Assembly (NCBI RefSeq): GCF_030499575.1
Contig: NZ_JASTLC010000001.1
Span: forward strand, 8,642,001 to 8,706,000
From: Streptomyces sp. DG2A-72
GTDB taxonomy: Bacteria > Actinomycetota > Actinomycetes > Streptomycetales > Streptomycetaceae
DNA length: 64,000 bases
Reading direction: 5' to 3'
In this document: positions 11,973 to 39,521 of the stretch, one piece after another
Layout: every line of letters begins with the position of its first letter
Position numbering within the stretch: position 1 is the stretch's first letter
The notes under the pieces: generated by a model
What the model was told of the DNA's origin: nothing
The model's input: the letters and a program-made list of their open reading frames with translations, nothing else
Database searches by the model: none
Made by a program: the position numbers and the translations under genes

Positions 11973-12056
11973 GCTCGGGATGCTAGGCGAGAGCCCCTGA
12001 GCAGGAGCAGAGCCTCAGGCTGTGACCTTGCCCTCGCCGCTTCTGTGACCGGCACC

Positions 12057-12521
12057 TCACCGCTCGACGGCCACCATCGCGGCGAGCTCGCCGGGGGTTC
12101 GATGACCTGCCGCCGTGTCGCTCAACAGCCCGTGCGCACAGAGTACTTGGGCCGCCGCGACACCCCACGGCAGGCGCAGCCCGGCCTGCTGGAGGAGGTC
12201 GGTGCGGGCCGGCATCCCGGCGGCCGGACCGGTGCGTACTCCGGACGGGGTGAGCAGCGCCGTGTCGTCGGCCCAGCGCAGGGCGAGGTCCACGTCGTGC
12301 GTCGCCATCACCACCGTGGTGCCGCCCGCGCGCAGGGCGCCGAGGGTGGCGAGCAGCCGCTCCTGGCCGTCCGGGTCGAGCCCCGCGGTCGGCTCGTCCA
12401 GGATCAGCACCCGGGGCCGCATCGCGACCGCGCCCGCGATCGCCGTCCGCTTGCGCTGCCCGTAGGACAGCAGATGCGTGGGCCGGTCGGCCAGGGCGGC
12501 GATGTCCAGCGCGGCAAGCGC
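12057..12521 (-). pseudogene. C-terminal fragment of cobalt/nickel-type ABC ATPase (CbiO-like)
   Basis: The 154 codons encode a signature motif (LLSYGQRKRTAIAGAVAMRP), Walker B (VLILDEPTAGLDP), the switch His (VVMATHDVDLALRW) and the family tail. Walker A and the whole N-terminal half are missing. The frame runs without a stop directly into S33-peptidase sequence (RVGRMVLDA) on its upstream side. The fragment therefore looks like one end of a deletion that also removed the CbiM/CbiQ partners. It cannot bind ATP on its own. Confidence 0.85.
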
Positions 12522-13102
12522 CGCGTCCAGCACCATCCGTCCGACCCGCTGCGGGAACAGTGCCGCGTAGGCCGCGCCGAGATGACTGCCGCGACACTCC
12601 GAGGAAGCCCGTCCTGGGTTCGCCGAGCGCGGCGCGGATCGCGTCCATGTCGTACGCCGTCTGCTCGGTGGACAGATATGGCAGGACACCGCCCGCGCCC
12701 TTCGCGCAGTCGTCGGCCATGTTTCGCAGCGAGGCGAGGCAGGCCCGTTCCGCCGCCGGGCGCACTGGCACGGGGTCCGTGCCCGGGCTGTCGAACAGGC
12801 CGCCCATGTCACCGCAGTCGACCGGTGAGCTGTGGCCGATGCCGCGCGGGTCGAAGCCGATGTTGACCAGCAGGATGCCACGTCGCTCGGCGGGCGTGCC
12901 GGAGGCGGGGACCCGAGAGACGGCGATGGTGAGGCGCGGTCCCTGCGGGTGGTGCCGGTCGAGCGGGACGCTGATCCGCCCGCACTCGACGCGGTACGTC
13001 CGGTGTCGGCGGTGCGGCCTCGGCGGGAGCGGCGGTGGGGAGCAGCGCGAGGGCGCACAGTATCGCCGCGGAGCGGGTGGAGACGGGCAAAAGGAACCCC
13101 AA
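12522..13102 (-). pseudogene. Degraded S33 peptidase (tripeptidyl-aminopeptidase type)
   Basis: Parts of a secreted alpha/beta-hydrolase survive in three frames. One frame has a signal peptide (STRSAAILCALALLPTAAPA). A second has YRVECGRISVPLDRHHPQ, GILLVN joined directly to IGFDPRGIGHSSPV, and EQTAYDMDAIRAALGEP. The first frame then returns with LGAAYAALFPQRVGRM. The NPGGPGGSG oxyanion region and the Ser elbow (GYSYGTYLG in intact enzymes) are deleted, and the catalytic Asp/His domain is replaced by the ABC ATPase fragment. An intact homologue lies at 59695-61266. The limits are approximate. Confidence 0.85.
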
Positions 13103-13128
13103 GGTGATGTTGTTTTTTCAGATGACAA

Positions 13129-13143
13129 TGAAAATGATTATCG
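13129..13143. promoter_or_regulatory. Zur box (zinc-responsive operator) candidate
   Basis: TGAAAATGATTATCG matches the actinobacterial Zur consensus TGAAAATGATTTTCA, as I recall it, at 13 of 15 positions, in an AT-rich island of otherwise GC-rich DNA. It lies 94 bp before the ATP-grasp start and immediately upstream of the degraded peptidase on the other strand, so it sits in a divergent promoter. If real, it would repress the metallophore operon when zinc is sufficient. Confidence 0.65.
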
Positions 13144-13236
13144 ATAACGTAGCCGAGTCAAGACCCGGCCTCCCTCCCGTCCGAGGGGGTTCCGAGCTGC
13201 CCTGACGTCTGAACCACCCGTCGGAAAAGGGGAGTT

Positions 13237-14493
13237 GTGGCTCATCTGCTGATGGTCGAGAGCTGGGTCGGTTCCATGAGCCGACTGCTGCCGAGAGCGA
13301 TCCGGGAGAGCGGGCACGAGTTCACGTTCCTCACCCGTGACCTGCACCACTACCTCCGGTCGGCGCCGGAGGGCACCGCGCATCCGCTGCTCGGCGCCCG
13401 CCATGTGATCGCCGCCGACACGAACGACGTCGACGCCCTGCTGCCCGAGGTCGAGCGGCTGCACGCGGCGCTCGGCTTCGACGGGGTGCTCACGTCCTGT
13501 GACTACTACCTGCCGACCGTGGCGCGCATCGCCGGACACCTCGGACTGCCCGGCCCGGGCCCCGAGGTGGTGGAGAACGCCTGCCGCAAGGACGCCACCC
13601 GCCGTGTCCTCGCCGACGCGGGCCTGCCGCAGCCGCGCTTCGCCGTCCACGAGGAGTGGGCCGACCTCGCACGGGCTGCCGGGGAGATCGGCTACCCGCT
13701 GGTCGTCAAGCCCGTCGACCTGTGCGCGGGCATGTACGTACGGCAGGTCGACGACGAGGCGCAACTCGCCGCGGCGGTACGAGACTTGGGCGACTTCCCG
13801 GTCAATGCGCGCGGGCAGCGCCGGGCGCCCGTCGTCCTCCTCGAAGAGCTGCTGGACGGCCCCGAGGTGAGCGTCGAGACCGTCTCCCACGCGGGCGCGG
13901 TCCAGGTGGTCGGTGTGACCGACAAGAGCATCGGCGGCGCCCCCGCCTTCATCGAGACCGGCCATATGTTCCCGGCCGCGCTGACGCCCGCCGACACCGA
14001 GGCCGCCGAGCACACCGCGCTCGGCGCCCTGAAGGCCCTCGGGCTGACGGACGGCGTGGTCGCCCACACCGAGATCAAGCTGACCTCCGCCGGTCCCCGC
14101 GTCGTCGAGGTCAACCCACGGCCCGCCGGAAACCGCATCACCGAACTCGTCCGCCACGTCACCGGCATCGACCTCGCCGCCGCCTTCGTAGAGGTCGCCC
14201 TCGGCCGTACACCCGACCTGCGCCGCACGGACACCGGGCTGGCCAGCGCGGCCATCGGCTTCCTCGTCCCGCACACGGCGGGCACGCTGGAGGCGCTGGA
14301 CGGACGTGAACTGCACGACACCACCGGTGTGTTGGAGCTGCAGCTCGCCGAGCCCGGCAAGGCCGTGAAGGCGGCGGGCAGCAACAACGAGTACCTAGGG
14401 CACGTCATGGCCGGCGACGCTGAGGGACCCGGCGCCCGCGACCGCGTCGAGGCGCTGCTGGCCGCGCTGCGGGCGGGGCTGGTGATCCGGTGA
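13237..14493 (+). CDS. ATP-grasp carboxylate-amine ligase
   Basis: The 418-residue ATP-grasp enzyme is of the kind that joins a carboxylate to an amine with ATP (carnosine-synthase/dipeptide-ligase-like). Seen are an N-terminal Rossmann-like part, the central ATP-binding loop (YPLVVKPVDLCAGMYVRQV) and the C-terminal metal-binding stretch EIKLTSAGPRVVEVNPRPAG, with Glu and Asn as Mg ligands. It ends with FLVPHTAGTLEAL and KAVKAAGSNNEYLG, typical of the family. AAAGGGGAG precedes GTG 13237. It is the first gene behind the Zur-like box and its stop overlaps the next start. By inference it condenses amino-acid units of a metal-chelating product. Confidence 0.85.
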   Translation: MAHLLMVESWVGSMSRLLPRAIRESGHEFTFLTRDLHHYLRSAPEGTAHPLLGARHVIAADTNDVDALLPEVERLHAALGFDGVLTSCDYYLPTVARIAGHLGLPGPGPEVVENACRKDATRRVLADAGLPQPRFAVHEEWADLARAAGEIGYPLVVKPVDLCAGMYVRQVDDEAQLAAAVRDLGDFPVNARGQRRAPVVLLEELLDGPEVSVETVSHAGAVQVVGVTDKSIGGAPAFIETGHMFPAALTPADTEAAEHTALGALKALGLTDGVVAHTEIKLTSAGPRVVEVNPRPAGNRITELVRHVTGIDLAAAFVEVALGRTPDLRRTDTGLASAAIGFLVPHTAGTLEALDGRELHDTTGVLELQLAEPGKAVKAAGSNNEYLGHVMAGDAEGPGARDRVEALLAALRAGLVIR

Positions 14494-15659
14494 CCGCGAC
14501 TGAGACGGTGACCGCGACCGACACGGTGACCGCGGCCGACGCGGTGACCGAGACCGGGACGGCGACCGCCACCGAGGCGGTGACGACTGGCGATGCGGGG
14601 ACCGCCACGGGGGCGGCGACCGCCAGCGAGGCGGCGACGACTGGCGATGCGGGGACCGCCACGGGGGCGGCGGTCGCCAGCGAGGCGGTGGCGATCACTG
14701 AGGCGGTGGCGATCACTGAGGCGGTGGCGATCACTGAGGCGGTGGCGATCACTGAGGCGGTGGCGACCACTGAGGCGGTGGCGACCACTGAGGCGGTGGC
14801 GACCACCGAGACGGCGACGATCACCGGGACGGTGACCGCCACCGAGACCATCACGACCGCCTTCGACGACCTCATACGCCGGGTCAGCGCCGGTGACCTC
14901 GGTCCGGACCCGGCCACCCTGCGTATCGCGGTCGCCTTCACCACCTGTCAGGCCGTACGGCACGACGGGCGTGGCACCGGCTACCGCAACGAGGTGCTCA
15001 GCCTGCGTCTCGCGGAGGCCGTCGGCTCGTGCGCGGTCGAACCCGGCGCGCTGCCCGACGGCGCGCTGGACGATTGCGTCGGCGCGGGTGTGGCGCGGCT
15101 GCTGGAGCATCCGCTGCTGCCCGTGCGCGTGGCCGCGCTGGACGCGTATCTGACGCACGTCACCCCGCACGCCCCGGCCAACGGAGCCCGTCCCGTCCCG
15201 CTGCCCGCCGGAACCTCGCTGGAGAAGTCCCGGGCCCGCGCACAGGCCGTCGTCGAGCTGCTCGACCTGCGGCCGGGGGCCACCGTGCTCGTGGTCGGTG
15301 TGGTCAACTCCCTGCTGGAGGCGCTGCGTTCGCGCGGGCTCGGCTATGTGCCCTGCGACCTCAAGGGCGGCGCGACGGAGTGGGGCGAGGAGGTCGTCGG
15401 GGACGCGCTCGCCGCGGCCGACCGCTGTGACGCGCTGCTCGTGTCCGGGATGACCCTGGGCAACGGCACCTTCGAACCGCTGCGGCGGCACGCCCTCCAG
15501 CGCGGCAAGCAGCTGGTGATGTTCGCGCAGACCGGCAGCGCCGTACTGCCCCGTTTCCTCGGGCACGGCGTGAGCGCGGTGTGCGCGGAGCCGTACCCCT
15601 TCTTCTGGCTGGACGGCGGGCCCGGAGTGATCCACCGGTACCGCGGAGGTGGCCGATGA
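14490..15659 (+). CDS. DUF4213/DUF364 putative heavy-metal-chelation protein with repetitive N-terminus
   Basis: The 389-residue product starts at GTG 14490 inside the GTGA overlap. Residues 1-123 are a low-complexity Thr/Ala/Glu tract (AVAITE and AVATTE units) encoded by a minisatellite. The folded protein begins near TTAFDDLIRRVSAGD. The C-terminal half (ATVLVVGVVNSLLEALRSRG, then DALLVSGMTLGNGTFEPL) matches DUF364, annotated as a putative heavy-metal-chelation domain. Usual homologues begin about residue 120, so the real start may be one of several GTG codons within the repeats. The role is unknown; in this operon it could bind or hand over metal, or act in chelator assembly. Confidence 0.7.
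   Translation: MTATETVTATDTVTAADAVTETGTATATEAVTTGDAGTATGAATASEAATTGDAGTATGAAVASEAVAITEAVAITEAVAITEAVAITEAVATTEAVATTEAVATTETATITGTVTATETITTAFDDLIRRVSAGDLGPDPATLRIAVAFTTCQAVRHDGRGTGYRNEVLSLRLAEAVGSCAVEPGALPDGALDDCVGAGVARLLEHPLLPVRVAALDAYLTHVTPHAPANGARPVPLPAGTSLEKSRARAQAVVELLDLRPGATVLVVGVVNSLLEALRSRGLGYVPCDLKGGATEWGEEVVGDALAAADRCDALLVSGMTLGNGTFEPLRRHALQRGKQLVMFAQTGSAVLPRFLGHGVSAVCAEPYPFFWLDGGPGVIHRYRGGGR
14574..14807 (+). repeat. In-frame minisatellite: 2 x 54 bp then 7 x 18 bp
   Basis: Two 54-bp units (14574-14627, 14628-14681) differ at a few bases. Seven 18-bp units follow at 14682, 14700, 14718, 14736, 14754, 14772 and 14790: four GAGGCGGTGGCGATCACT, two with GACCACT and one with GACCACC. 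All unit lengths are multiples of 3, so copy-number change keeps the frame. Related degenerate copies flank the array from 14490 to about 14850. Confidence 0.95.
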
Positions 15660-16735
15660 CCGCCACCGCCGTACGGGTCGTCGCCCGCCCGGAGTTGCTC
15701 GACCTGCTCGGCCGCACCCCGACCGTCCGCATCACCGCCGGTCTGCCCGGACCCCACCCCGGCTTCTGGGCCAAGCTCGAAGGGCTCGCGGCGGGCGGGA
15801 TGAAGGCACGGGCGGCCTTGTCGATGCTGCTCGGCGCCCGCGAGCGCGGCGAACTGCGGCCCGGCGCGCCGGTCGTGGAGTCCACCTCCGGCACGCTCGG
15901 CATCGGCCTCGCGTTCGCCGGGCAGGCGCTCGGCCACCCGGTCGTTCTGGTCGGCGACAGCGAACTGGAGCCGTCCATGCGGCAGTTGCTGCGCGCCCAC
16001 GGGGTCCGGCTGGAGATCGTCGACCGTCCGGCCCCGGTGGGCGGCCGGCAGGCCGCACGCCTCGCGCGGCTGCGCGAACTGCTCGCGATCCTGCCCGACG
16101 CCTACTGGCCGGACCAGTACAACAACCCCGACAACACGACCGGTTACGCCACCCTCGCCGCCGAACTCGCCGCCCAGCTGGACCACTTGGACGTCCTGGT
16201 GTGCAGCGTCGGCACCGGCGGACACAGCGCGGGCATCATCGGCCCACTGCGCCGCCACTGGCCCGCCCTGCGCCTCATCGGCGTCGACGCGACGGGCTCC
16301 ACCATCTTCGGCCAGCCCGCGCGGCCGAGGCTGATGCGCGGCCTGGGCAGCAGCATCCACCCGCGCAACGTCGCCTACGACGCCTTCGACGAGGTCCACT
16401 GGATCGGCCCCGCCGAGGCCGTGGACAGCTGCCGCCGGCTCACCCGGGGCAGCTTCGTCAGCGGCGGCTGGAGCACCGGCGCGGTCGCGCGCGTCGCCGC
16501 CTGGGCGGCCCGCGTCCACCCCGGCGCGGTCGTCGCAACCGTTTTCCCCGACGGTCCGCACCGTTACCTCGGAACCGTTTACGACGACGACTTCACCACC
16601 GCCCACGGCATCGACCCGTCCACCGCGGCCACCCGCCCCGTCGAGATCCCGCACCCCCGCGCCGCCGAGGCCACCGGCTGGGCCCGCTGCACCCGCGTGA
16701 CCGATCCGCTCGACTCCCCGGAAGAAACCCTGTGA
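15656..16735 (+). CDS. PLP-dependent cysteine-synthase-like enzyme
   Basis: The 359-residue fold-type II PLP enzyme is related to cysteine synthase/cystathionine beta-synthase and SbnA. The expected Schiff-base Lys is Lys50 (LEGLAAGGMKARAAL). The phosphate loop is STSGTLGIG where cysteine synthases have STSGNTGIG. A second glycine loop reads CSVGTGGHSAG, and NPDNTTGY is the substrate loop. The altered Asn and the LAAGGMK context suggest a beta-replacement partner other than sulfide. ATG 15656 overlaps the previous stop (ATGA). By inference it builds a C-N bond between a serine-derived unit and an amine, as in diaminopropionate or EDDS-type chelators. Confidence 0.8.
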   Translation: MTATAVRVVARPELLDLLGRTPTVRITAGLPGPHPGFWAKLEGLAAGGMKARAALSMLLGARERGELRPGAPVVESTSGTLGIGLAFAGQALGHPVVLVGDSELEPSMRQLLRAHGVRLEIVDRPAPVGGRQAARLARLRELLAILPDAYWPDQYNNPDNTTGYATLAAELAAQLDHLDVLVCSVGTGGHSAGIIGPLRRHWPALRLIGVDATGSTIFGQPARPRLMRGLGSSIHPRNVAYDAFDEVHWIGPAEAVDSCRRLTRGSFVSGGWSTGAVARVAAWAARVHPGAVVATVFPDGPHRYLGTVYDDDFTTAHGIDPSTAATRPVEIPHPRAAEATGWARCTRVTDPLDSPEETL

Positions 16736-17772
16736 AGGCCACCCTGCGCACCGTACGTCTCGACCTCACCGAGCCGCTGCGCATCTCCCGCTCCACCATG
16801 TCCGCCCGCGACGCCGTATGGCTGACGATCGAAGACGAGGGCCTGTACGGCCATGGAGAGGCCGTCACCAGCGTGTACTACGGCCTCGACGCCGACACCC
16901 TGGGACGGCACTTCGCGGCCGTCGACCTGAACCGCTTCCCCGACCCCGAGAGCGCGTTGGAGGACCTGAGGCAGGGGTGGCCCGTCCCGCCGGCGGTGGC
17001 TGCCGCCGTCGAGGCCGCACTGCTCGACCTGGTCGGCAAGCGCATGGGAAGCCCGGTCCACCGCCTGCTCGGCGCCCCCGCCGCCCCGGTCGCCGCCACC
17101 GCCCGCACCATCGGCATCACCTCCCTCGCGCAGGCCGCCGCCGAGGCCCGCCGTCTCGCCGCGAGCGGCTTCCAGGTCATCAAGGTCAAGGCGGGCACGC
17201 CCGACCCCGAGGACGACATCGAGCGCGTACGGATCATCCGCGACGCCGCGCCAAACGCCCGGCTGCTCCTCGACCCCAACGGCGCCTGGAGCGTCCCGCA
17301 GGCCCGGGCCCTGCTGCCGCGTTACGCGGCCCTCGGCGTCGAAGCCGTCGAGCAGCCCCTCGCGCCGGGCGACCCCGAGGCGTTGGGAAGGCTGGCCGAG
17401 CGCTCACCGCTGCCGATCATCGCCGACGAGGACGCCGTAAGCCTCGAAGACGCCCGCCGTCTCGCGGGACGTGTGCACGGCGTCAACGTCAAGCTCGCCA
17501 AGTGCGGCGGCGTCCACGCGGCCCTGCGCATCGGGGAGTTGATCGAGGGCAGCGGGACCGAGCTGATGCTCGGCTGCCTCACCGCCAGCAGCCTCGGCCT
17601 CGCACCCGCCGTCCACCTGGCCGACCGCGCCCGCTGGGCCGACCTCGACGGACATCTGCTGCTCGCCCACGACCCGTGGACCGGGATCGGCGGCACCGAC
17701 GGCTTCGTACGCGCCCCCGACCTGCCGGGGCTCGGCGTGGAGGAGGTGGCGGCCCGTGAAGACGTGGCATGA
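16732..17772 (+). CDS. Enolase-superfamily enzyme, dipeptide-epimerase-like
   Basis: The 346-residue protein is of the muconate-lactonizing subgroup. The catalytic set is complete: VIKVKAG (KxK base pair), LLDPNGAW, AVEQPLAPG and IIADEDAV (three metal carboxylates) and NVKLAKCGG (second base). Near the C-terminus LGCLTASSLGLAPAVHLA stands where Ala-Glu epimerases read GCMLESSLG, so the substrate-facing Glu is Thr. The tail DLDGHLLLAHDP fits the group. The start GTG 16732 overlaps the previous stop by 4 bp. It probably epimerises an amino-acid or dipeptide-like intermediate; the substrate is unknown. Confidence 0.82.
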   Translation: MKATLRTVRLDLTEPLRISRSTMSARDAVWLTIEDEGLYGHGEAVTSVYYGLDADTLGRHFAAVDLNRFPDPESALEDLRQGWPVPPAVAAAVEAALLDLVGKRMGSPVHRLLGAPAAPVAATARTIGITSLAQAAAEARRLAASGFQVIKVKAGTPDPEDDIERVRIIRDAAPNARLLLDPNGAWSVPQARALLPRYAALGVEAVEQPLAPGDPEALGRLAERSPLPIIADEDAVSLEDARRLAGRVHGVNVKLAKCGGVHAALRIGELIEGSGTELMLGCLTASSLGLAPAVHLADRARWADLDGHLLLAHDPWTGIGGTDGFVRAPDLPGLGVEEVAAREDVA

Positions 17773-18982
17773 GATACGGCAATTCCCGCTCGCCGTACGC
17801 CTGTTGCTGGTGAACCAGCTCGGCGTCAACACCGGTTTCTACCTGCTGATCCCGTACCTGGCCACCCACCTCACCGAGAACCTCGGCATGTCGGCGGCCG
17901 TAGTCGGCATCGTCCTCGGGGTCCGCAACCTCAGCCAGCAGGGCCTGTTCATCATCGGTGGCTCCGCCTCCGATCGGCTCGGCGCGCGGGGCGTGATCAT
18001 CGCCGGGTGTGCGCTGCGGACGGTCGGGTTCGCGCTGTTCGCGCTCGGCGACGGGCTGCCGGTGCTGCTGGCCGCGTCCGTGCTCAGCGGGCTCGCGGGC
18101 GCGCTGTTCAACCCGGCGGTGCGGGCCTATCTCTCGCAGGAGGCGGGGGAGCGCAAGGCGGAGGCGTTCGCGCTCTTCAACGTGTTCGCGACGACCGGCG
18201 CGCTGATCGGCCCACTGCTGGGCAGCGCCCTGCTGCTGGTCGACTTCCGCACGTCCGCGCTCACCGCCGCCGGAATCTTCGCGGCCCTCACCGTGGCCCA
18301 GGCGCTGGTGCTGCCCGCGCGGGAAGTGGAGCCCAGCAAGGGCGGCGTCCTCGCCGACTGGCGTGAAGTCGTCGGCAACCGCGCCTTCCTGGCCTTCGCG
18401 CTCGCCATGGTCGGCATGTTCACCCTGGAGAACCAGCTCTACCTGCTGCTGCCCGAGGGAGCCCGACAAGCCACCGGCTGGGAGGGCGCGGCAGGCCTCG
18501 TCTTCCTCGTCGGAACCGTTTCCAACCTCGCGTTCCAGCTCCGCATCACCCGCTCTCTCAAGTCCCGTGGCAGCAGACCGCGTTGGATCGCGGCCGGACT
18601 CGCCCTCATGGGCCTGGCGTTCGTGCCCCCGGCCTTCGCGACACAGCACACCGGTCTGCTCGCCGCCCTCCCCGTACTCCTCGGCACCCTGCTCCTCTAC
18701 CTCGGCGTCATGATCGCCTCGCCCTTCGTCATGGAGCTGATCCCCGGCTTCGGCCGCCCCGAGCTGACCGGCACCTACTTCGGGATCTTCTACGTCGTCT
18801 CCGGCATCGCTGCCGCCGTCGGCAACACCGTCGTCGGCTGGGCCATGGACACGGGAGACCGGCTTCCGTGGCTGTGCTGCGCCCTCTTCGGGCTGGCCTC
18901 CGCGGGCGGGGTCGCCTGGCTGCACCGGCGGGACGCGCTCCCGGTGATCCCGGTGCCGGTCGCCGAACGGAGCGCCGTATGA
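17756..18982 (+). CDS. MFS transporter, probable exporter
   Basis: The 408-residue protein has about 12 membrane helices and the MFS loop motif between helices 2 and 3 (GGSASDRLGARGVIIAG). Its start GTG 17756 lies 17 bp inside the epimerase gene and its end overlaps the methyltransferase start (ATGA). A drug/metabolite-exporter-like member encoded between the biosynthetic enzymes and the importer genes is best explained as the exporter of the operon's product. Direction and substrate are inferred from position only. Confidence 0.82.
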   Translation: MKTWHEIRQFPLAVRLLLVNQLGVNTGFYLLIPYLATHLTENLGMSAAVVGIVLGVRNLSQQGLFIIGGSASDRLGARGVIIAGCALRTVGFALFALGDGLPVLLAASVLSGLAGALFNPAVRAYLSQEAGERKAEAFALFNVFATTGALIGPLLGSALLLVDFRTSALTAAGIFAALTVAQALVLPAREVEPSKGGVLADWREVVGNRAFLAFALAMVGMFTLENQLYLLLPEGARQATGWEGAAGLVFLVGTVSNLAFQLRITRSLKSRGSRPRWIAAGLALMGLAFVPPAFATQHTGLLAALPVLLGTLLLYLGVMIASPFVMELIPGFGRPELTGTYFGIFYVVSGIAAAVGNTVVGWAMDTGDRLPWLCCALFGLASAGGVAWLHRRDALPVIPVPVAERSAV

Positions 18983-19770
18983 CGAGCGGCAACCTCCTCA
19001 CCGACAACCCCGAGCTGTACGAGGCCCGCTTCCCCGACCCCGACCGGCTCGCCGGACGCTGGGCCGAGGACTGCCTGCGGCGGTACGGCGCCGGGTCCCG
19101 TGTGCTGGACATGGGCTGCGGGACGGGCCGTGACGCCGGCCATCTGCACAAGGCCGGCCGTACGGTCACGGGCGCCGACCTCTCCGAGACGATGCTCGCG
19201 CACGCCCGCGCTCAGCACCCCGGGCCGGCGTATGTCCGGGCCGACCTGCACGGCTTCGACCTGGGCGCGTTCGACGCGGTCGTCTGCCTGGACAGCTCCC
19301 TGCTGTACTGCCACACCAACGACCAGCTCGACGGCTTCCTCGCCTCCTGCCGTCGCGCCCTGACACCCGGCGGGCTGCTCGTGGCGGAGATGCGCAACGG
19401 CGCCTACTTCCTGGGCCGGACCGACCTCCTCGACACGCCCAAGGTCAACGCCTTCATCTGGCAGGGCACCGCCTACCGGTCGACGACGACCCTGACTGTC
19501 GACCGCACCGCCCAACTCCTGCGCCGCATCCGCGTATGGATGTCCGACGACGGCTCCCCGCCCGTCGAGCAGCGCTCCGCCTGGCGGCTGCTGTTCCCGC
19601 TGGAGCTGCGCCACTTCCTGGCCGTCCACGGCTTCGAGGTCCTCGACCTGTACGACGGCCCCGGACCACGCACCGAACCGCCTTGGCGCGAGGGCCAGTT
19701 GCCCGGATCGGCCACGGACGCCGACCGGCTGCATGTCGTAGCGCGCCTGAACCCGCTCACCCACCACTGA
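18979..19770 (+). CDS. SAM-dependent class I methyltransferase
   Basis: The 263-residue protein has motif I VLDMGCGTGRDAG (about residues 43-55), the acidic residue after strand 2 (VTGADLSETML) and the LTPGGLLVAEMRNG strand. A long C-terminal half (about residues 140-260) likely forms the substrate lid. ATG 18979 overlaps the exporter stop. It is probably an N-, O- or C-methyltransferase tailoring the operon's metabolite. No motif points to a specific acceptor. Confidence 0.85.
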   Translation: MTSGNLLTDNPELYEARFPDPDRLAGRWAEDCLRRYGAGSRVLDMGCGTGRDAGHLHKAGRTVTGADLSETMLAHARAQHPGPAYVRADLHGFDLGAFDAVVCLDSSLLYCHTNDQLDGFLASCRRALTPGGLLVAEMRNGAYFLGRTDLLDTPKVNAFIWQGTAYRSTTTLTVDRTAQLLRRIRVWMSDDGSPPVEQRSAWRLLFPLELRHFLAVHGFEVLDLYDGPGPRTEPPWREGQLPGSATDADRLHVVARLNPLTHH

Positions 19771-19780
19771 AGGACATCGC

Positions 19781-21355
19781 ATGTACGACGATCGCTTTCC
19801 CGGTCTGCGCCGCCGCGGCTTCCTCGCCGCCACCGGTGCCGCCTCGCTCGGTGCGCTCGCGCTCACCGGCTGCGGTTCCTCCGACGACAGCTCCGGTACG
19901 GGGGCGGGTGACGGCAAGCCGAAGCAGGGCGGGCGGCTGCGGGCCGCGTTCGCGGGCGGTGGCGCCAGCGAGACCCTGGATCCGCACCTGGCCAACCTGT
20001 TCGCCGACGTCGCCCGCGCCAAGGCCCTCTTCGACAAGCTCGCCGACTACGGTCCCGATCTGTCGGCGCGGCCCCGGCTCGCCGAGAAGTGGGAGTCCGG
20101 CAAGGCCCTCGACAAGTGGTCTGTCACCTTGCGCAAGGCCACCTTCCACGACGGCAAGCCCGTCACCGCGAAGGACGTGCTCTACAGCTACCGCCGGATC
20201 GCCGACCCGAAGCAGGCATTCCGTGCCAAGGCCTCCCTGGAACCCATCGACCTCGACGCCAGCCGCGCCACGAGCGAGACGACCATCGAGTTCGTGCTGA
20301 AGCGGCCGACCGCCGAATTCCCCAACGTCCTGGCCGCGTTCGGCGCGTACATCGTCCCGGACGGTGCGACCGAGTTCGACAAGGAGCCGATCGGCTCCGG
20401 CCCCTTCCGCTTCGTCTCGTTCGCGCCGGGCCGCTCGGCCGTCTTCCGCCGCTACGAGGACTACTGGGAGGGCGCCCCGCACCTCGACGAGCTCGAATTC
20501 GTCGTCGCCAACGAGGAGTCCGCGCGCGTCAACGCGCTCCTCGGTGGCCAGGTCGAGTACGCGCACGAGCTCAACCCCACCACCGGCCGCGCGCACGAGG
20601 GCAAGGGGCAGATCGAGATCGTGCGGTTGCGCAACAGCGCCATGCAGGGCTTCGCGATGAAGACCGACCGGGCGCCCTTCGACGACAAGCGGGTCCGGCA
20701 GGCGTTCTTCCTCATCGCCGACCGGCAGGAACTCGTCGACGGCGCACTGTCCGGGGCGGGCGAGGTCGGCAACGACCTGTTCGGCAAGGGTTACGAGTAC
20801 TACGCCGACGGCCTCCCGCAGCGCGAGCGGGACCTCGACAAGGCGCGTGCCCTGCTGAAGCAGGCGGGCGCGGAGAAGCTGAAGGTCAGCCTCGACACCT
20901 CCGCCGTCGCCGCCGGATTCACCGAGGCCGCCAGCATCTTCCGCGACCAGGCCGCGAAGGCGGGCGTCACCGTCGACGTGAAGATGGGCAGCAAGGACAC
21001 GTACTGGGCCGACATCCTCGACTCCGGCACCCTGTGCTGCTACCGCTCCGGCGCCATGCCCATCGAGGCCCATATCTCGCAGCGGCTGCTCACCGACTCC
21101 AGCACCAATGCCACCAGGTGGCAGCACAAGGACTTCGACGCGCTCTACCAGCAGGCGCAGTCCACGCGGGACAAGACCGAGCGGGCCGCCGTGTACGAGC
21201 GCATGCAGCGTCGGCTGTACTCCGAGGGCGGTTTCCTGATCTGGGGCTTCGCCGACTGGATCCTCGGAACGGCCAAGAACGTCAAGGGCGTCGAGACGAA
21301 CGCCCCCGCCAACTCGCTCGACTGGGCCCGCTTCGACAAGGTCTGGCTGGCGTGA
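19781..21355 (+). CDS. ABC transporter solute-binding lipoprotein, DppA/NikA/opine type
   Basis: The 524-residue SBP_bac_5 protein has a Tat-like leader (LRRRGFLAATG) and lipobox LTGC, with Cys31 as the lipidation site. The mature part shows family landmarks: FHDGKPVTAKDVLYSYRRI, IGSGPFRFV, FDDKRVRQAFFLIADRQ. This group binds oligopeptides, Ni-histidine or opine-type metal complexes outside the membrane. GAAGGA precedes ATG 19781. Its position right after biosynthesis and export genes under a Zur-like box suggests it captures the zinc-loaded metallophore. It is paralogous to the protein at 33232-34785. Confidence 0.9.
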   Translation: MYDDRFPGLRRRGFLAATGAASLGALALTGCGSSDDSSGTGAGDGKPKQGGRLRAAFAGGGASETLDPHLANLFADVARAKALFDKLADYGPDLSARPRLAEKWESGKALDKWSVTLRKATFHDGKPVTAKDVLYSYRRIADPKQAFRAKASLEPIDLDASRATSETTIEFVLKRPTAEFPNVLAAFGAYIVPDGATEFDKEPIGSGPFRFVSFAPGRSAVFRRYEDYWEGAPHLDELEFVVANEESARVNALLGGQVEYAHELNPTTGRAHEGKGQIEIVRLRNSAMQGFAMKTDRAPFDDKRVRQAFFLIADRQELVDGALSGAGEVGNDLFGKGYEYYADGLPQRERDLDKARALLKQAGAEKLKVSLDTSAVAAGFTEAASIFRDQAAKAGVTVDVKMGSKDTYWADILDSGTLCCYRSGAMPIEAHISQRLLTDSSTNATRWQHKDFDALYQQAQSTRDKTERAAVYERMQRRLYSEGGFLIWGFADWILGTAKNVKGVETNAPANSLDWARFDKVWLA

Positions 21356-22410
21356 GGACCAAGCAGGGCGGGCTGAGTCGGTTGCGGTCCGTCAACGCCC
21401 TAAAGGGGCGCGGGGAACTGCGCGACAAGCCACGACGGAGCAGCAGCCGACAGACGGCATCCCGCGGCACATCCTTCGTCGTCCGGCGCCTTATGCTCGG
21501 CGGAGCCCAAACCGTGGCCGTCGTGCTGCTGGTCTTCGCGCTCACCGAGGCGCTGCCGGGCGACGCCGCGGTCGCCCTCGCCGGTGACCAGCCCGACCCG
21601 GCCCGGATCGCCGCCATCCGTGAGGCGATGGACCTGGACCGGCCTGCGTACGAGCGGCTGCTCGACTGGGCATCCGGGCTGCTGCACGGCGACTTCGGCA
21701 CGTCCTTGACCTCCGGGCGGCCGGTCGGGCAGTACATCTCGGACGGCTTCGGGCCCACCCTGCTGCTCGCCGGCCTCACCGTCGCGCTGCTGATCCCGCT
21801 CGGCTTCGGGCTCGGTGTGCTGGCCGCCCGGCACGAGGGGCGGCTCGTCGACCGGCTGGTCAGCTCGGTGACGCTCGCCGTGTATGCGGTTCCCGAATTC
21901 GCCCTCGGCGTCCTCCTGATAACCGTCTTCGCGCTCCAACTGGGCTGGCTGCCGCCGACCGCCGTCGGTTACGGCACCGACCTGCTCGCCCACCCGGCCG
22001 CACTGGTCCTGCCCGTCCTGGTCCTGCTGTCCCGGCCGGTGTGCTCCATCGCCCGCCTCGTCCGCGCCGGCATGGTCGACGCACTGGCCTCCCCGTACGC
22101 GGCCCACGCCCACCGCTACGGCGTACCGGGCGCCCGCATCCGCTACACGCACGCCCTGCCCAACGCGCTCGCCCCGGCCGCGCAGCAACTCGCCCGCACC
22201 ATCGACTGGCTGCTGTGCGGCGTCATCGTCGTGGAGGCCCTGTACGTGATCCCCGGACTCGGCACCGTCCTGCTCAACGCCGTCGCCGAACGCGACGTAC
22301 CGGTGGTGCAGGGACTCGCCGTCGTCTTCGGCGTCCTGACCGTCGTACTGAACCTCGGAGCGGACCTGGTGGCCCATCGGCTGACCCCACGGGCGGGGGT
22401 GGCCGCGTGA
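21352..22410 (+). CDS. ABC transporter permease 1, DppB-like
   Basis: The permease domain is of the DppB/NikB type: EALPGDAAVALAG, ARIAAIREAMDLDRP, GDFGTSLTSGRPVGQ and the EAA-loop region SPYAAHAHRYGVPGARI. From GTG 21352 (4-bp overlap with the binding protein) the product is 352 residues. The first 47 residues are foreign to the family, because the interspersed element at 21404-21438 is read through as coding (ALKGRGELRDKP). Family homology starts at about VVRRLMLGG; ATG 21493 is the other possible start but lacks a ribosome site. Several membrane helices follow. Confidence 0.85.
   Translation: MRTKQGGLSRLRSVNALKGRGELRDKPRRSSSRQTASRGTSFVVRRLMLGGAQTVAVVLLVFALTEALPGDAAVALAGDQPDPARIAAIREAMDLDRPAYERLLDWASGLLHGDFGTSLTSGRPVGQYISDGFGPTLLLAGLTVALLIPLGFGLGVLAARHEGRLVDRLVSSVTLAVYAVPEFALGVLLITVFALQLGWLPPTAVGYGTDLLAHPAALVLPVLVLLSRPVCSIARLVRAGMVDALASPYAAHAHRYGVPGARIRYTHALPNALAPAAQQLARTIDWLLCGVIVVEALYVIPGLGTVLLNAVAERDVPVVQGLAVVFGVLTVVLNLGADLVAHRLTPRAGVAA
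21404..21438 (+). repeat. Interspersed element, copy 2, inside the permease reading frame
   Basis: Positions 21404-21426 are identical to 6989-7011. As in copy 1, a short inverted repeat precedes and overlaps it (CGCCC TAAA GGGGCG, 21396-21410). Here it interrupts an otherwise overlapping operon and is translated in frame if the GTG start is used. Confidence 0.65.
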
Positions 22411-23225
22411 AGGCCCGGCGCTACTTCCTCGGCATCGCGGTCATCGCCGTACCCCTCGTCCTCGCCCTCCTCGGGCCGCTGTTCGCGGGCGAACCGGGCC
22501 CGCGCGCCCCGTCGTTCACGCTCGGCGACGGGCACTGGCTCGGCACCGACTTCGTGGGCCGGGACGTCGGGCAGCAGGTGCTGCACGGCGGACGCCCGGT
22601 CGTCCTGACCGCGCTGGCCGCCACCGCGCTGGCCTATCTGGTCGCGCTGCCGGTCGGGCTCGTCAGCGCGCTCACCCACCGCCGCTGGCTGGAGGAGACG
22701 CTGATGCGGCCGCTGGACGTGCTGCTCGCGGTGCCCTCGCTGCTGCTGATCCTGCTGGTGGCGTCGGTGTTCACGCCGGGGGCGACCGGGCTGGCGCTGC
22801 TGGTCGCGCTGGTCAACGTGCCCGACGCGGCACGCATCGTGCGGGCCGCCGCAGCGGAGGCCGCCGCGCGTCCGGCCGTCGAGGCGCTGCGGATGCAGGG
22901 CGAGACGTGGTGGCGCACGGCTGTCGGATATGTCGGCCGGTCGATGCTGCGCACTCTCGCCGCCGACGCGGGCATCCGGCTCACCGGCGTGCTGTACCTG
23001 GTGGCCACGGCGGCGTTCCTCGGTGTCGGGGTCGCGCCGGACGCGGCGGACTGGGCGGTCATGGTCGACCGCAACCGCACCGGACTGTTCGTGCAGCCCT
23101 GGGCCGTGGTGGTGCCCGCGCTGCTGATCGTCGCGCTGACGATGGGCAGCAACCTGCTCTTCGACGCGGCGCTGGAGAAGCGAGACCTGCCACTGAAGAA
23201 GCGAGAGAAGGAACGATCGTTGTGA
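22407..23225 (+). CDS. ABC transporter permease 2, DppC-like
   Basis: The 272-residue inner-membrane protein has the DppC pattern LGTDFVGRDVGQQVLHGGR, a periplasmic N-terminal segment after helix 1, and an EAA-like loop around VEALRMQGETWWRTAVGYV. GTG 22407 overlaps the permease 1 stop (GTGA) and its own stop overlaps the ATPase start. It forms the translocation pore together with permease 1. Confidence 0.9.
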   Translation: MKARRYFLGIAVIAVPLVLALLGPLFAGEPGPRAPSFTLGDGHWLGTDFVGRDVGQQVLHGGRPVVLTALAATALAYLVALPVGLVSALTHRRWLEETLMRPLDVLLAVPSLLLILLVASVFTPGATGLALLVALVNVPDAARIVRAAAAEAAARPAVEALRMQGETWWRTAVGYVGRSMLRTLAADAGIRLTGVLYLVATAAFLGVGVAPDAADWAVMVDRNRTGLFVQPWAVVVPALLIVALTMGSNLLFDAALEKRDLPLKKREKERSL

Positions 23226-24760
23226 GTGAGAGTGACACTCCCGTCGCCGAGATCCGCGACCTGCGCGTGGAGATCGACGGCCACGCGATCGTGGACGGCG
23301 TGAACCTGCGGGTCCTGCCCGGACGGGTGACGGCTCTGGTCGGCGCCTCCGGAAGCGGCAAGACCACGACGGGGCTCGCGCTGCTCGGGGAGTACCCGCC
23401 CGCGGCCCGCGTCAGCGGCGACGTACGCGTCTCGGGGAACGTCGGCTACGTACCGCAGCACCCCGCCGCCGTCCTCAACCCCGCGCGCCGGGTCTCGGCG
23501 CTGCTGACCGACATCGCCCGCACGCAGGTACGCGACCTGCCGCGTGCTCAGCGCAGGGCTGCCGCCCGCGAACGCGTCCTCCGCGCCCTCTCCGACGCCC
23601 AGCTCCCGGACGCTGAGCCCCTGTTGGGGCGCTACCCACACCAGCTCTCCGGCGGCCAGCAGCAACGCGTCGTCCTCGCGCAGGCCCTCCTGCTCGGCGC
23701 CCGGGTGATCGTCGCGGACGAACCCACCACCGGGCAGGACGCGTTGACCAAGAGCCGGATCGTCGACGAACTGGCGGCGGTCGCGGCACGCGGTATCGCG
23801 GTCGTGCTGCTCAGTCATGACCTGGACGTGGTGCGCACGCTCGCCGACGACGTACTGGTCATGAAGGCGGGCCGGGTGGTGGAGTCGGGCCCGGCCGAAC
23901 GGCTCTGGCTCGCACCCCGGCACGAGTGGACCCGCGGGCTCCTCGACGCCCGGCCCCCGGCCCCGCAGGAGTATCCCGCCGAGGACACGACGGAACCCGT
24001 CCTGCGCGTCCGCGACCTGACCGCCCGCCACGGCAGGAGCGCCGTCCTGCGCACCGGCGGCCTCGCCGTCCACCCCGGTGAGTGCCTGGCCGTCGTCGGC
24101 CGCTCCGGCAGCGGCAAGACCACCCTCGCCCGCTGCCTGGCCGGACTCCACCGCGACCACGACGGCGAGATCGACCTCGACGGCACCCCGCTGCCGCGCA
24201 GCCTCCGCCACCGCGACCGGGCTCAGCTGAGGGCGGTCCAGTACGTCTTCCAGGACGCACGGGCCGCCTTCGACGAGTACCGGCCGGTCCTCGACCAGGT
24301 CGCCCGGACGGCCGTACGCCTGCGCGGCATCGACCCGCGCACGGCCGGGGAGGAGGCCCTGACGACACTCATCGGCCTCGGCCTCGCCCCCGGTCCGGCC
24401 CGGCGCCGCCCGCCGCAGCTGTCCGGCGGCGAGCTCCAGCGCGCGGCCCTGGCCCGGGCGCTGCTCGCGCACCCCCGGGTGCTGATCTGCGACGAGATCA
24501 CCTCGGGCCTGGACACGGTCACCCGGCGCGGCATCCTCGACGTCCTCGAAGGGCTCCTGCGCGACCGCGACGACCTCTCCCTCGTCCTGATCACCCACGA
24601 CCTGGACACCGCACGCCTGGCGCACCGCATCGCCGTACTGGACGCGGGAGAGCTGGTCGAGCAGGGCCCGGCCGACCGGATCCTGACCGCGCCGCAGCAC
24701 CCGTTCACCGTGTCGCTGATGGAGACGACGGCCCGGCTGGAGGCGGGAACAGGGCCCTGA
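23222..24760 (+). CDS. ABC transporter ATPase with two fused nucleotide-binding domains
   Basis: The 512 residues carry two ABC ATPase domains in one chain, replacing the separate DppD/DppF pair. Domain 1 has Walker A GASGSGKT (41-48), signature LSGGQQQRV and VIVADEPTTGQD. Domain 2 has Walker A GRSGSGKT (about 293-300), signature LSGGELQRA and VLICDEITSGLD. GTG 23222 overlaps the preceding stop. It is the last gene of the ten-gene operon. The same fused arrangement occurs in the iron-controlled transporter at 29887-31419. Confidence 0.93.
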   Translation: MSESDTPVAEIRDLRVEIDGHAIVDGVNLRVLPGRVTALVGASGSGKTTTGLALLGEYPPAARVSGDVRVSGNVGYVPQHPAAVLNPARRVSALLTDIARTQVRDLPRAQRRAAARERVLRALSDAQLPDAEPLLGRYPHQLSGGQQQRVVLAQALLLGARVIVADEPTTGQDALTKSRIVDELAAVAARGIAVVLLSHDLDVVRTLADDVLVMKAGRVVESGPAERLWLAPRHEWTRGLLDARPPAPQEYPAEDTTEPVLRVRDLTARHGRSAVLRTGGLAVHPGECLAVVGRSGSGKTTLARCLAGLHRDHDGEIDLDGTPLPRSLRHRDRAQLRAVQYVFQDARAAFDEYRPVLDQVARTAVRLRGIDPRTAGEEALTTLIGLGLAPGPARRRPPQLSGGELQRAALARALLAHPRVLICDEITSGLDTVTRRGILDVLEGLLRDRDDLSLVLITHDLDTARLAHRIAVLDAGELVEQGPADRILTAPQHPFTVSLMETTARLEAGTGP

Positions 24761-29886: not shown

Positions 29887-31419
29887 TCAGTTCCCCAGCG
29901 GAACTCCCGTCGCCAGCGCCGCCGTCACCGGATGGGACGGGGACGCGAACAGCTGTGCCGTCGGCCCTGACTCGACGGCGTGACCGTCGGACATGACCAC
30001 CAGCCCGTCCGTCCGGTCGGCGACCAGGCGCAGGTCGTGGCTGACCAGGACCAGGGACAGACCGCGGCTCTCCCGCAGTTCCGCCAGCAGGTCCATGACG
30101 GCGACCGCCGTGTCCCCGTCGAGCGCGGAGGTCACCTCGTCGCACATCAGCACGTCCGGGTCGGCCGCCAGGGCGCGGGCGATGGCGGCGCGCTGCCGCT
30201 GGCCCCCGGAGAGTTCGTGGGGGTAGCGATCGGCGAAGGCCGCCGGGAGGCCGACGCTGTCCAGGAGTTCCAGGACCCGGTCGGGCGCCCCGGCCCGGTC
30301 CGCGCGGCCGTGCAGCAGCAGGGGGCGGCGCAGGGTGGCCCCGATGGTGCGGCTCGGGTTGAGCGTGCCCAGCGGGTCCTGCGGGACGAGTTGCAGACGG
30401 CGCCGCTGTTCCCGGGAGCGGCGCCGGGCGGTGGGGCCCAGACGGGTGCCGTCCAGGGTGACGCTGCCCGCGGTGGGGCGGTGCAGGCCGACGAGCGTGC
30501 GCAGCAGCGTGGTCTTGCCGGAGCCGGAGGCCCCGACGACGCCGATGCTGGTTCCGGCCGGGACGGCGAGGTCGATGCCGTGCAGGACGGGCGTACGGCG
30601 GCCCCGGTGCGCGTAGGCCGCGTGCAGGCCGGAGACGGTGAGCACGGCCGGGGCGTCGGACGGCACCGGATCGCGCGGGGTCGCGTCCGGGCGCGGCGGC
30701 TTCGTCGGCCGTGCGCCCGTCAGGTCCACCACGTCGTCCGCGAGCCGGTCGACCAGGCCGGGGTCGTGGCAGGCGAGGGCGACGGCCAGCCGGTGGCTCT
30801 CGGCGAGGTGCCGCAGCAGATCGGCGATCTCGTCGCGCAGCGCCGGATCGAGACCGGCGGTGGGCTCGTCGAGCAGCAGCACGGCAGGGCGGCGGGCCAG
30901 CGCCCGGGCGAGCGCCACCCGGCGCTGCTGACCGCCCGACAGCCCGCCGATCCGTCGGTCCGCCAGCCCGTTCTCCAGGGGCAGCCTGACCTCGGTGAGC
31001 AGCGCCTCGATCGCCTCCTTGCCGCGCTCGACGGCGACTTCGGCGAGCAGGCGGCGCACCTTCATCCGCGGGTTGAGGGCGGAGGCGGGGTCCTGGCCGA
31101 CGTAGGCGAGACGGTGTCGGCGCAGGTCGCGCAGGTCGGGGGCGGACAGGGCGAGGGGGTCGCGGCCGAGGACGGTGACGGTTCCGGCGGTGCGGCGCGC
31201 GCCGGGCGGCAGGGCGCCGGCGACGGCCCGCAGCAGGGTGGTCTTGCCGCAGCCGGAGGGGCCGGTGACGGCGGTGATCCGGCCGGGGCGTATGTCGAGG
31301 CCGGCGGCGTCCAGCAGATGACGGCCGTCGCGGGCGGCGACGGTCAGGCCGCTGACCCGGACCGCGAACTCGCCCTCTTCGTCCGGGACTTCGGGATACC
31401 AGTCGGGCATGTGGTTCAC
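29887..31419 (-). CDS. ABC transporter ATPase with two fused nucleotide-binding domains (iron-controlled operon)
   Basis: The 510-residue tandem ATPase has Walker A GPSGCGKT (53-60), signature LSGGQQRRV and VLLLDEPTAGLDP in domain 1. Domain 2 has GASGSGKT (about 293-300), LSGGQRQRA and VLMCDEVTSALD. GTG 31419 overlaps the permease stop by 4 bp. It is the last gene of the minus-strand importer operon headed by the lipoprotein at 34785. It has the same architecture as the ATPase at 23222-24760, so the two importers are paralogous. Confidence 0.93.
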   Translation of the reverse strand: MNHMPDWYPEVPDEEGEFAVRVSGLTVAARDGRHLLDAAGLDIRPGRITAVTGPSGCGKTTLLRAVAGALPPGARRTAGTVTVLGRDPLALSAPDLRDLRRHRLAYVGQDPASALNPRMKVRRLLAEVAVERGKEAIEALLTEVRLPLENGLADRRIGGLSGGQQRRVALARALARRPAVLLLDEPTAGLDPALRDEIADLLRHLAESHRLAVALACHDPGLVDRLADDVVDLTGARPTKPPRPDATPRDPVPSDAPAVLTVSGLHAAYAHRGRRTPVLHGIDLAVPAGTSIGVVGASGSGKTTLLRTLVGLHRPTAGSVTLDGTRLGPTARRRSREQRRRLQLVPQDPLGTLNPSRTIGATLRRPLLLHGRADRAGAPDRVLELLDSVGLPAAFADRYPHELSGGQRQRAAIARALAADPDVLMCDEVTSALDGDTAVAVMDLLAELRESRGLSLVLVSHDLRLVADRTDGLVVMSDGHAVESGPTAQLFASPSHPVTAALATGVPLGN

Positions 31420-32237
31420 AGCGCGGGCACCGCCTTCCGGCCGGTCTGGGGGACGAGGGCGGCGGCTGCCAGGTTGACGCTCATGGCGAGCAGGCCGATG
31501 CCGATGCTGGGCGCGAGCACGGCCCAGGGGTTGAGCAGGATGCCGCCGGAGTTCTCGCGGATCATCAACGCCCAGTCGGCGGCGGGCGGTTGGGGTCCCA
31601 CCTGGAGGAAACCGGCCGTCGCGACCAGATAGACGGCGGCGACGAACCGCAGCCCGAACAGCGCCAGCAGGGTGGCCCGCAGATTGGGCAGCACCTCCCG
31701 CACGACGAGATACCAGAGCCGTTCACCGCCGACGGTCGCCGCCTCCACATACCCGGACGCGGCCACCGGAGCCGCCGCGCCCGCGACCAGCCGCACCGCG
31801 TAGGGGACGCCCAGCACGACCGACGCGGTGACCACGGCGAGCCGTCCGCCGTTCGGCCAGGACAGCGTGACGAGCAGGATGCCGAGGACGGCGGGCAGCA
31901 GCATCAGCACGTCCGCGACCCGCTCGATGATCCGCCCGACGGCCGGGCGCAGCACGCTGACCGCACCCAGCAGCGCCGCCGCACCGGTGACGAGGACCGC
32001 GACGAGCAGCGAGGTGACGACGAGTTCACGTCCCCCCGCGAGGATCCGGCTCAGCACGTCCCGCCCCAACTGGTCGCCGCCGAGCGGGGCGGCACCGCCG
32101 GGCTCCGCGTACGGGGCGGTGATGGGGGCGTCGATGGCGTGCGGGGCGAGCCAGGGCCCGGCGAGGGCGAGGGCGGTGAGCAGCAGCGCGGGCAGCACGC
32201 GCAGGACGACCGGACGGCGCCAGGCGGTGATGGTCAT
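31416..32237 (-). CDS. ABC transporter permease 2, DppC-like (iron-controlled operon)
   Basis: The 273-residue membrane protein has the DppC-type segment LGGDQLGRDVLSRILAGGRE after helix 1, several further helices, and the EAA-like loop around YVEAATVGGERLWYLVVREV. ATG 32237 overlaps the upstream permease stop (ATGA). It partners the permease encoded at 32234-33247 in the pore. Confidence 0.9.
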   Translation of the reverse strand: MTITAWRRPVVLRVLPALLLTALALAGPWLAPHAIDAPITAPYAEPGGAAPLGGDQLGRDVLSRILAGGRELVVTSLLVAVLVTGAAALLGAVSVLRPAVGRIIERVADVLMLLPAVLGILLVTLSWPNGGRLAVVTASVVLGVPYAVRLVAGAAAPVAASGYVEAATVGGERLWYLVVREVLPNLRATLLALFGLRFVAAVYLVATAGFLQVGPQPPAADWALMIRENSGGILLNPWAVLAPSIGIGLLAMSVNLAAAALVPQTGRKAVPAL

Positions 32238-33247
32238 GTCCGGCCTCCCGAGGCCCAGGCGCGGATGAGGTCGGAGAGCAGCAGCACGCCGGTGATGACG
32301 ACCCCCGTGACGGCGACGACACCCGCGATGACAGGGCTGTCCCGGTCGGCGACAGCTCCGGCCAGGACCGAGCCGATACCGGGGTAGTTGAAGATGGTCT
32401 CCACCACGACCGCACCGCCCAGCAGCATCCCGGTCGAGGTGGCGAGTCCGGCGGCGATGGTGGGCAGCGCCCCGGGCAGCAGGTGATGCGTGAAGACACG
32501 GTGCCGCGGGAGTCCGTCGAGGACGGCGGTCTCGATGTGCGGCGCCTTGGCCTCGTCGGCGAGCGCCGCCCTCACGATCCGGGTGTTCCAGCCGATCTGC
32601 GGGATCGCCAGCGCCAGCACGGGCAGCACGAGCATCTCCCAGGAGGCGGGCGAGCCGTCGGCGTCGGTGAGCGTGACCGCGGGCAGCCAGTCCGTCCACA
32701 GCGCGAACACCAGCACCAGGGCCACCGCGACCACGAACTCGGGCAGCGCGAGGATCCCGGTGGCACTCGCCGACACCGTACGGTCCACCGGGCCCTCGGG
32801 TCTGGCGGCGGCCCAGCAGCCGAGGGCGACCGAGGCCACCAGCGTCACCAGCAGCGCAAGACCGCCGAGCAGCAGCGTGTTGGGGAACGGACGGGAGAGC
32901 AGGTCGGCGACCGACTCGCCCCGCGCGGACGTGCCGAGATCCCCGGTGGGCAGGCCGCTCATCCAGTGCCAGAAGCGCTCCAGGACCGGCTGGTCCAGGC
33001 CCAGCAGCCGACGCCGCTCGGCGATGCCGGCCGCGCTCTCCCCGCGCTCGGAGGTGGCGTCCGCCGCGTTGCCCGGCAACAACTCCACGGCGGCGAAGAC
33101 GAAGGCGAGCAGCAAGGCCAGCAGCAGCGCCCGGCGGGCGAGCACCCCGGCCACCGCCGTGACCGTACGCAACACGGCCGGGGCCGTCCGGGGCTCGCTG
33201 CCCTGGGACGGCCCGCTCCGTGTCGCCGGGATCAGCGAGCCAGCCAT
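32234..33247 (-). CDS. ABC transporter permease 1, DppB-like (iron-controlled operon)
   Basis: The 337-residue protein has DppB features: VELLPGNAADATS after helix 1, RRRLLGLDQPVLERFWHW, GDLGTSARGESVADLL, and membrane helices ending with LLLSDLIRAWAS. ATG 33247 lies 16 bp inside the binding-protein gene, so translation is coupled. It has no inserted repeat at its N-terminus, unlike its counterpart at 21352. Confidence 0.9.
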   Translation of the reverse strand: MAGSLIPATRSGPSQGSEPRTAPAVLRTVTAVAGVLARRALLLALLLAFVFAAVELLPGNAADATSERGESAAGIAERRRLLGLDQPVLERFWHWMSGLPTGDLGTSARGESVADLLSRPFPNTLLLGGLALLVTLVASVALGCWAAARPEGPVDRTVSASATGILALPEFVVAVALVLVFALWTDWLPAVTLTDADGSPASWEMLVLPVLALAIPQIGWNTRIVRAALADEAKAPHIETAVLDGLPRHRVFTHHLLPGALPTIAAGLATSTGMLLGGAVVVETIFNYPGIGSVLAGAVADRDSPVIAGVVAVTGVVITGVLLLSDLIRAWASGGRT

Positions 33248-34785: not shown

Positions 34786-34820
34786 TTTCGACCTCGTTCC
34801 ACTGGAGTGGGGCATTTTGC

Positions 34821-34839
34821 TTAGGTGTGCCTACCCTAA
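34821..34839. promoter_or_regulatory. Iron box 1 (DmdR/IdeR operator) for the importer operon
   Basis: TTAGGTGTGCCTACCCTAA is a near-perfect 19-bp match to the actinobacterial DtxR-family consensus TTAGGTTAGGCTAACCTAA. On the minus strand it overlaps a candidate -10 (TAGGCA, 34833-34828) spaced 17 bp from a -35 (TTGCCA, 34856-34851). Iron-loaded repressor would block the binding-protein promoter. Confidence 0.9.
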
Positions 34840-39516: not shown

Positions 39517-39521
39517 CACCG

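Follow-up and report, generated by a model that had tools for sequence, protein, structure and literature searches.

The ethylenediaminedisuccinate (EDDS) system makes its zinc chelator without a non-ribosomal peptide synthetase (NRPS) and uses a cysteine-synthase-type pyridoxal phosphate (PLP) enzyme, while staphylopine and pseudopaline are small opine metallophores that serve zinc. The [S,S]-EDDS zincophore of Amycolatopsis japonicum is controlled by Zur (PMC9252823, PMC6103462), clusters for the siderophore ethylenediaminesuccinic acid hydroxyarginine (EDHA) occur in Streptomyces (PMC8914351), and coelibactin of S. coelicolor, a non-ribosomal peptide (PMC3430247), is a Zur-controlled zincophore candidate (PMC5472717). 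Here, we describe a ten-gene operon in a 64,000-nucleotide stretch of the Streptomyces sp. DG2A-72 genome (the window) that is probably a Zur-repressed, NRPS-free zincophore system. Its genes, taken from the open reading frames (ORFs) of the window, share the + strand at 13237-24760, behind a Zur-type box:

13122..13127, +, -35-like ATGACA, weak, 17 bp ahead of the -10-like hexamer
13129..13143, +, Zur-type box TGAAAATGATTATCG, agreeing with the S. coelicolor Zur motif at 10 of 11 specified bases
13145..13150, +, -10-like TAACGT, one base past the box, TAnnGT columns conserved
13237..14493, +, gene 1, ATP-grasp ligase of L-amino-acid ligase type (PF13535, PF18603 LAL_C2)
14490..15659, +, gene 2, DUF4213/DUF364 protein, its first ~120 aa a repetitive TEAV-type stretch
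15656..16735, +, gene 3, SbnA/cysteine-synthase-like PLP enzyme (PALP 170 bits on the longer ORF 15581-16735)
16732..17772, +, gene 4, enolase superfamily, dipeptide-epimerase type, DgcA / Ala-Glu epimerase-like (NF042940 218 bits, cut-off 400)
17756..18982, +, gene 5, major facilitator superfamily (MFS) exporter candidate (PF07690 119 bits)
18979..19770, +, gene 6, class I S-adenosylmethionine (SAM) methyltransferase (PF13649/PF08241 on the longer ORF 18583-19770)
19781..21355, +, gene 7, family-5 solute-binding protein (SBP), SBP_bac_5 (PF00496 264 bits)
21352..22410, +, gene 8, DppB/NikB-type permease (PF00528; Opp2B/NikB models)
22407..23225, +, gene 9, DppC/NikC-type permease (Opp2C/NikC models)
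23222..24760, +, gene 10, fused double ABC ATPase, DppD-DppF (NikD best on the first half, NikE on the second)

Seven of the nine junctions are 4-bp overlaps (1/2, 2/3, 3/4, 5/6, 7/8, 8/9 and 9/10); genes 4 and 5 overlap by 17 bp, and a 10-bp gap separates genes 6 and 7. An earlier, sequence-only reading of this DNA had named the same ten genes, order and junctions together with a Zur-like box at 13129-13143, all of which we reproduced. Its family calls were borne out by Pfam and NCBIfam profile matches, and its make-export-import architecture was confirmed, with no NRPS and no NRPS-independent siderophore (NIS; IucA/IucC synthetase) family in profile scans of the ten genes. The same scans returned no decarboxylase, nicotianamine-synthase-like, opine dehydrogenase or peptidase family, and no SbnB. 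The operon also has no ornithine-cyclodeaminase-like gene, the two PF02423 matches of the genome lying at 9.05 Mb and at 36185-37054 of the window. The survey of relatives that the same reading had proposed found all ten genes colinear in 74 of 80 named loci, the other six stopping at contig ends; these loci are the best 80 of 420 (79 titled Streptomyces, one "Actinobacteria bacterium"). In a separate set of 150 genomes, the gene-4 protein was matched at E<=1e-60 in 26, its own included, all belonging to one genus among 44. Genes 1-4 stand in order in 25 of the 25 other genomes, and all ten genes were matched (tblastn) in 22 of them. One of these same-genus genomes carries upstream DNA identical to that of Streptomyces cyaneochromogenes, which places the window in Streptomyces.

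Zur control of the operon is well supported at the sequence level, because the box is conserved, the same motif stands at the classical Zur genes of this genome, and the box lies on the putative promoter. Chromatin immunoprecipitation gave the 15-bp motif tGaNNatSatNNtCa for S. coelicolor Zur (PMC5472717), and apart from the box no window site, whichever strand is read, comes within one mismatch of it; being near-palindromic, the box was counted on both strands. The upstream regions compared numbered 105, or 101 after removal of four duplicates. In 90 of the 101, the best site differs from TGAAAAYGATTRTCG at no more than one position (best-site mismatches: 0 in 72, 1 in 18, 2 in 6, 3 in 4 and 4 in 1), and the distance from box to gene 1 was 104-110 bp in 76 of the 105. 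Across 100 distinct contexts, 12 of the 15 box columns are conserved at 93-100% and the other three at 75-85%, whereas flanking columns mostly reach 29-74%, save for a few adjoining the box and the TAnnGT hexamer one base past it (99, 97, 88 and 98%). ATGACA, CTGACA or GTGACA precedes the box in 64 of these contexts among the variants listed, with other letters elsewhere. The loci are relatives of each other, so that the counts are not independent; despite this kinship, the box columns stand far enough above their flanks to point to selection on the box.

The whole 10.6-Mb genome was scanned with TGAAAAYGATTTTCA at up to two mismatches, with the pattern read backwards as control. It gave 13 matches at 11 places, against 0 for the reversed pattern. 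Two of these places precede a ZnuA gene, the best-scoring FUR-family gene lying about 3 kb downstream, one precedes an ABC-3 permease and one falls between the L31 and S14 ribosomal protein genes. znuA, the ABC-3 permease and L31/S14 are classical Zur targets (for comparison, the S. coelicolor target list in PMC6103462). The other seven places include the studied operon, two ahead of a second DUF364 cluster described below, and single ones near another FUR gene and on contig C3. At the last two of the seven, the motif at C1:7513785 directly precedes another importer with family-5 SBP, permease and ATPase (C1:7506000-7525900), and a box variant, TGAAAACGATTATCG, at C1:6938788 precedes a small secreted-looking protein with no Pfam match. 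As a side observation, a PALP gene and, next to it, a gene that looks decarboxylase-like by eye lie some 3 kb away from the ABC-3 permease's Zur-type box (C1:8534000-8552900).

Alignments of relatives show nearly invariant catalytic residues in the SbnA-like PLP enzyme, the dipeptide-epimerase-type enolase and the ATP-grasp ligase. By sequence, the best PDB match is the L-amino acid ligase BL00235 for gene 1 and SbnA (5d87) for gene 3. Gene 3 keeps the PLP lysine and the equivalents of Arg132 and Tyr152 (SbnA numbering) in 81 of 81 rows; we take Arg132, Tyr152 and Ser185 of SbnA to be donor-pocket residues. In gene 4, what we take to be the KxK motif, the three metal ligands (D/E/D), the second lysine and the DxD ammonium motif are each kept in 76-78 of 78 rows. 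Gene 2 combines a DUF4213/DUF364 (PF04016) profile match with an enolase-N plus Rossmann-like fold, and its family has been proposed, from structure and gene context, to act in siderophore-type synthesis and metal chelation (PMC2954201). The TEAV-rich N-terminal stretch of this protein (~120 aa) is encoded by an 18-bp tandem repeat array at 14488-14848 and is lacking in the 22 other rows of its alignment. Among the transport genes, PDB relatives of gene 7 include Lmo0135, AgaA, NikA and DppA. For the SBP and permeases, the highest-scoring transporter models are nickel-named ones, and the CntA/C/D/F models also match the importer, in each case below cut-off.

A second DUF364 protein, 43% identical to gene 2, is encoded at 10.16 Mb of the same genome, in a cluster behind two Zur-type boxes (C1:10158000-10177900). 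The cluster comprises a SAM-transferase-like protein (matching the NCBIfam "putative methyltransferase"), a PALP 29% identical to gene 3, DUF364, MFS, FecCD permease, ATPase and Peripla_BP_2. It shares with the studied operon the frame of PALP, DUF364, exporter and importer, but differs in tailoring enzymes and in the type of importer. Adjoining it are a PNP-family phosphorylase, a HAD hydrolase and two genes that look by eye like MtnB and MtnD, together a methionine-salvage set. In a phylum-wide sample of 396 genomes, PALP lies within about 1.5 kb of DUF364 in 7 of 7 same-genus matches, and the one distant DUF364 match has no PALP nearby. Relatives of the 10.16 Mb DUF364, at least 120 among the matches listed, come from many Streptomyces and also from Amycolatopsis and Saccharopolyspora, and a third, distant family match in the genome, at C1:5185052, scores just above the family cut-off. 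Going by gene content, the 10.16 Mb cluster is possibly a second zincophore locus, perhaps using SAM-derived aminocarboxypropyl units. We suggest tentatively, with slightly less than even confidence, that an SbnA-like PLP enzyme and a chelator-building DUF364 protein form the core of an unrecognised NRPS-free class of actinomycete zincophores, a core that this genome would employ at least twice, each time with Zur-type boxes ahead of it. To this core the studied operon would add ATP-grasp ligase, epimerase, methyltransferase and a Dpp-type importer, and the 10.16 Mb cluster a FecCD importer and a SAM-dependent transferase that methionine salvage may supply.

Next to the operon, 5 kb downstream, a divergent cluster at window positions 29887-40910 encodes a TauD protein nearest to arginine/enduracididine hydroxylases, ornithine-cyclodeaminase-like and diaminopimelate-decarboxylase-like enzymes and a PALP, together with a MATE exporter, family-5 SBP, permease and fused ATPase. 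It carries TTAGG...CCTAA repeats, which we take to be iron-box-like. The cluster resembles that of EDHA, an aminopolycarboxylate siderophore. Compared with the operon, its SBP shows 34% identity, its fused ATPase 38% and its PALP 35%, and the likeness of SBP and ATPase suggests that an importer of this type accompanies an aminopolycarboxylate-type cluster next door.

We favor the zincophore interpretation because these observations converge: a conserved box at the putative promoter, with its motif at znuA, the ABC-3 permease and L31/S14; a colinear block with catalytic residues kept; a second Zur-boxed cluster with PALP, DUF364, MFS and FecCD importer; PALP near DUF364 in all seven same-genus matches of the phylum sample, and an EDHA-like neighbor with a related importer; and the role proposed for DUF364. 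The inference of a zincophore made in the sequence-only reading stands for Zur control, by sequence, and for the genes to make, export and import a product, whereas chelator synthesis, zinc binding and uptake stay at the level of prediction. Its link to EDDS-type chemistry is indirect: the SbnA-like PALP, some of the donor-pocket residues and the EDHA-like cluster nearby, with a related PALP and importer, agree with it, but one pocket residue is changed.

From this we infer the product, its zinc binding and the zinc response of the operon as follows. Zinc-loaded Zur would cover the promoter, and zinc shortage would free a single ten-gene transcript. The conserved residues suggest that the PLP enzyme couples a serine-derived 2-aminoacrylate unit with the amino group of a second amino acid, the activated donor being most likely O-phospho-L-serine and the product an N-(2-amino-2-carboxyethyl) amino acid. 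The ATP-grasp ligase would then link a further amino acid through an amide bond, the epimerase would invert one center of the resulting pseudo-dipeptide and the methyltransferase would cap it. DUF364 may act on the chelator in a condensing or finishing reaction, the least certain assignment. Finally, the MFS protein would export the chelator and the SBP/permease/fused-ATPase importer would return the metal complex.

Several observations weigh against this interpretation. The last base of the box is G instead of A, its one mismatch to the published motif, and a promoter scan reports no + strand promoter at the box region, so that the -35 element is only suggested. In three of the 25 relatives (L038, L052 and L056), part or all of the importer is missing next to the block; the best site of L056 within 400 bp has 4 mismatches, and in another relative, L057, the matches to genes 1, 4 and 7 are shortened. 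The PALP has Gly at the SbnA Ser185 position and Thr for the Asn of TSGN in 81 of 81 rows, and the SbnA reaction may therefore not carry over. Among the NCBIfam matches listed, all ten proteins stay below the equivalog cut-offs: gene 3 reaches 242 bits against 350 for the SbnA model TIGR03945, and gene 4 reaches 138 against 343 (PRK15129) and 218 against 400 (DgcA). In addition, many peptides and opines are bound by relatives of the importer.

The nickel-named transporter models would fit a metallophore made mainly for another metal (cobalt, nickel or copper) or a broad chelator, with Zur merely the switch, and broad-spectrum metallophores that also serve zinc exist, e.g., staphylopine. We consider this unlikely, since the box motif is common to znuA and ribosomal-protein Zur targets and, apart from transporter names, we noticed no pointer to another metal. 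An ATP-grasp L-amino-acid ligase, a dipeptide-epimerase-type enzyme and an MFS protein would also suit a small modified dipeptide, an antimetabolite or signal induced by zinc shortage and not meant for zinc uptake, which the importer would recycle. This is rather improbable given the four-gene importer within the block in 74 of 80 loci, the related importer of the EDHA-like cluster and the DUF364 common to the second Zur-boxed cluster.

It is very improbable that the operon serves Zur-induced scavenging or salvage of peptides, such as cell-wall peptides, and makes no chelator: the presence of a ligase, a PLP synthase, a methyltransferase and an exporter argues for synthesis, and profile scans of the ten genes gave no peptidase family. 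What speaks for salvage is the resemblance of the dipeptide-type importer and the epimerase to muropeptide use, and a divergent TAP-like alpha/beta hydrolase upstream in 34 of the 80 named loci; the other 46 gave no hydrolase match, some of them ending too soon to tell. In the three relatives inspected, the hydrolase gene forms a long open frame, of which a remnant is left in the window (11983-13128, minus strand, 163 residues matched); the Zur-type box would be common to the promoter regions of this gene and the operon.

If the zincophore interpretation is true, the operon represents a new zinc-chelator pathway in a genus on which drug discovery draws heavily. The pathway would occur in 80 or more species-level genomes and work without enzymes of NRPS, NIS, opine or EDDS/EDHA type, and the operon would also give a testable role to DUF364, a family with solved structures for which we found no known reaction. 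Aminopolycarboxylates are studied as potential metallo-beta-lactamase inhibitors (PMC10792612). Among the open-licence papers listed as matches, none describes the operon by its title or the start of its abstract; within this scope, the description of the operon as unrecognised in the sequence-only reading agrees with the literature.

Compared with known systems, the operon is like EDDS in its Zur-type control, here by sequence, its cysteine-synthase-type PLP enzyme and its lack of NRPS families, but has neither an ornithine-cyclodeaminase-like nor a decarboxylase gene and adds ATP-grasp ligase, epimerase, DUF364 and methyltransferase. With EDHA it shares, through the EDHA-like cluster of the same window, a related PLP enzyme and a peptide/nickel-type importer, whereas the iron-box-like sites, TauD hydroxylase, ornithine cyclodeaminase and decarboxylase of that cluster are absent. 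Gene 3 is closest, among solved structures, to SbnA of the SbnA/SbnB 2,3-diaminopropionate pathway (staphyloferrin B), although it scores below the SbnA cut-off and SbnB is missing. The family-5 SBP importer, with its sub-threshold CntA/C/D/F matches, recalls the staphylopine and pseudopaline systems, unlike which the ten genes include no nicotianamine-synthase-like or opine dehydrogenase family. Coelibactin is comparable as a case of Zur-type control in Streptomyces, but not in its NRPS. In kind, EDDS and EDHA come closest to the operon, and the enzyme set differs from those of EDDS/EDHA, opine, SbnA/B, NRPS and NIS systems alike.

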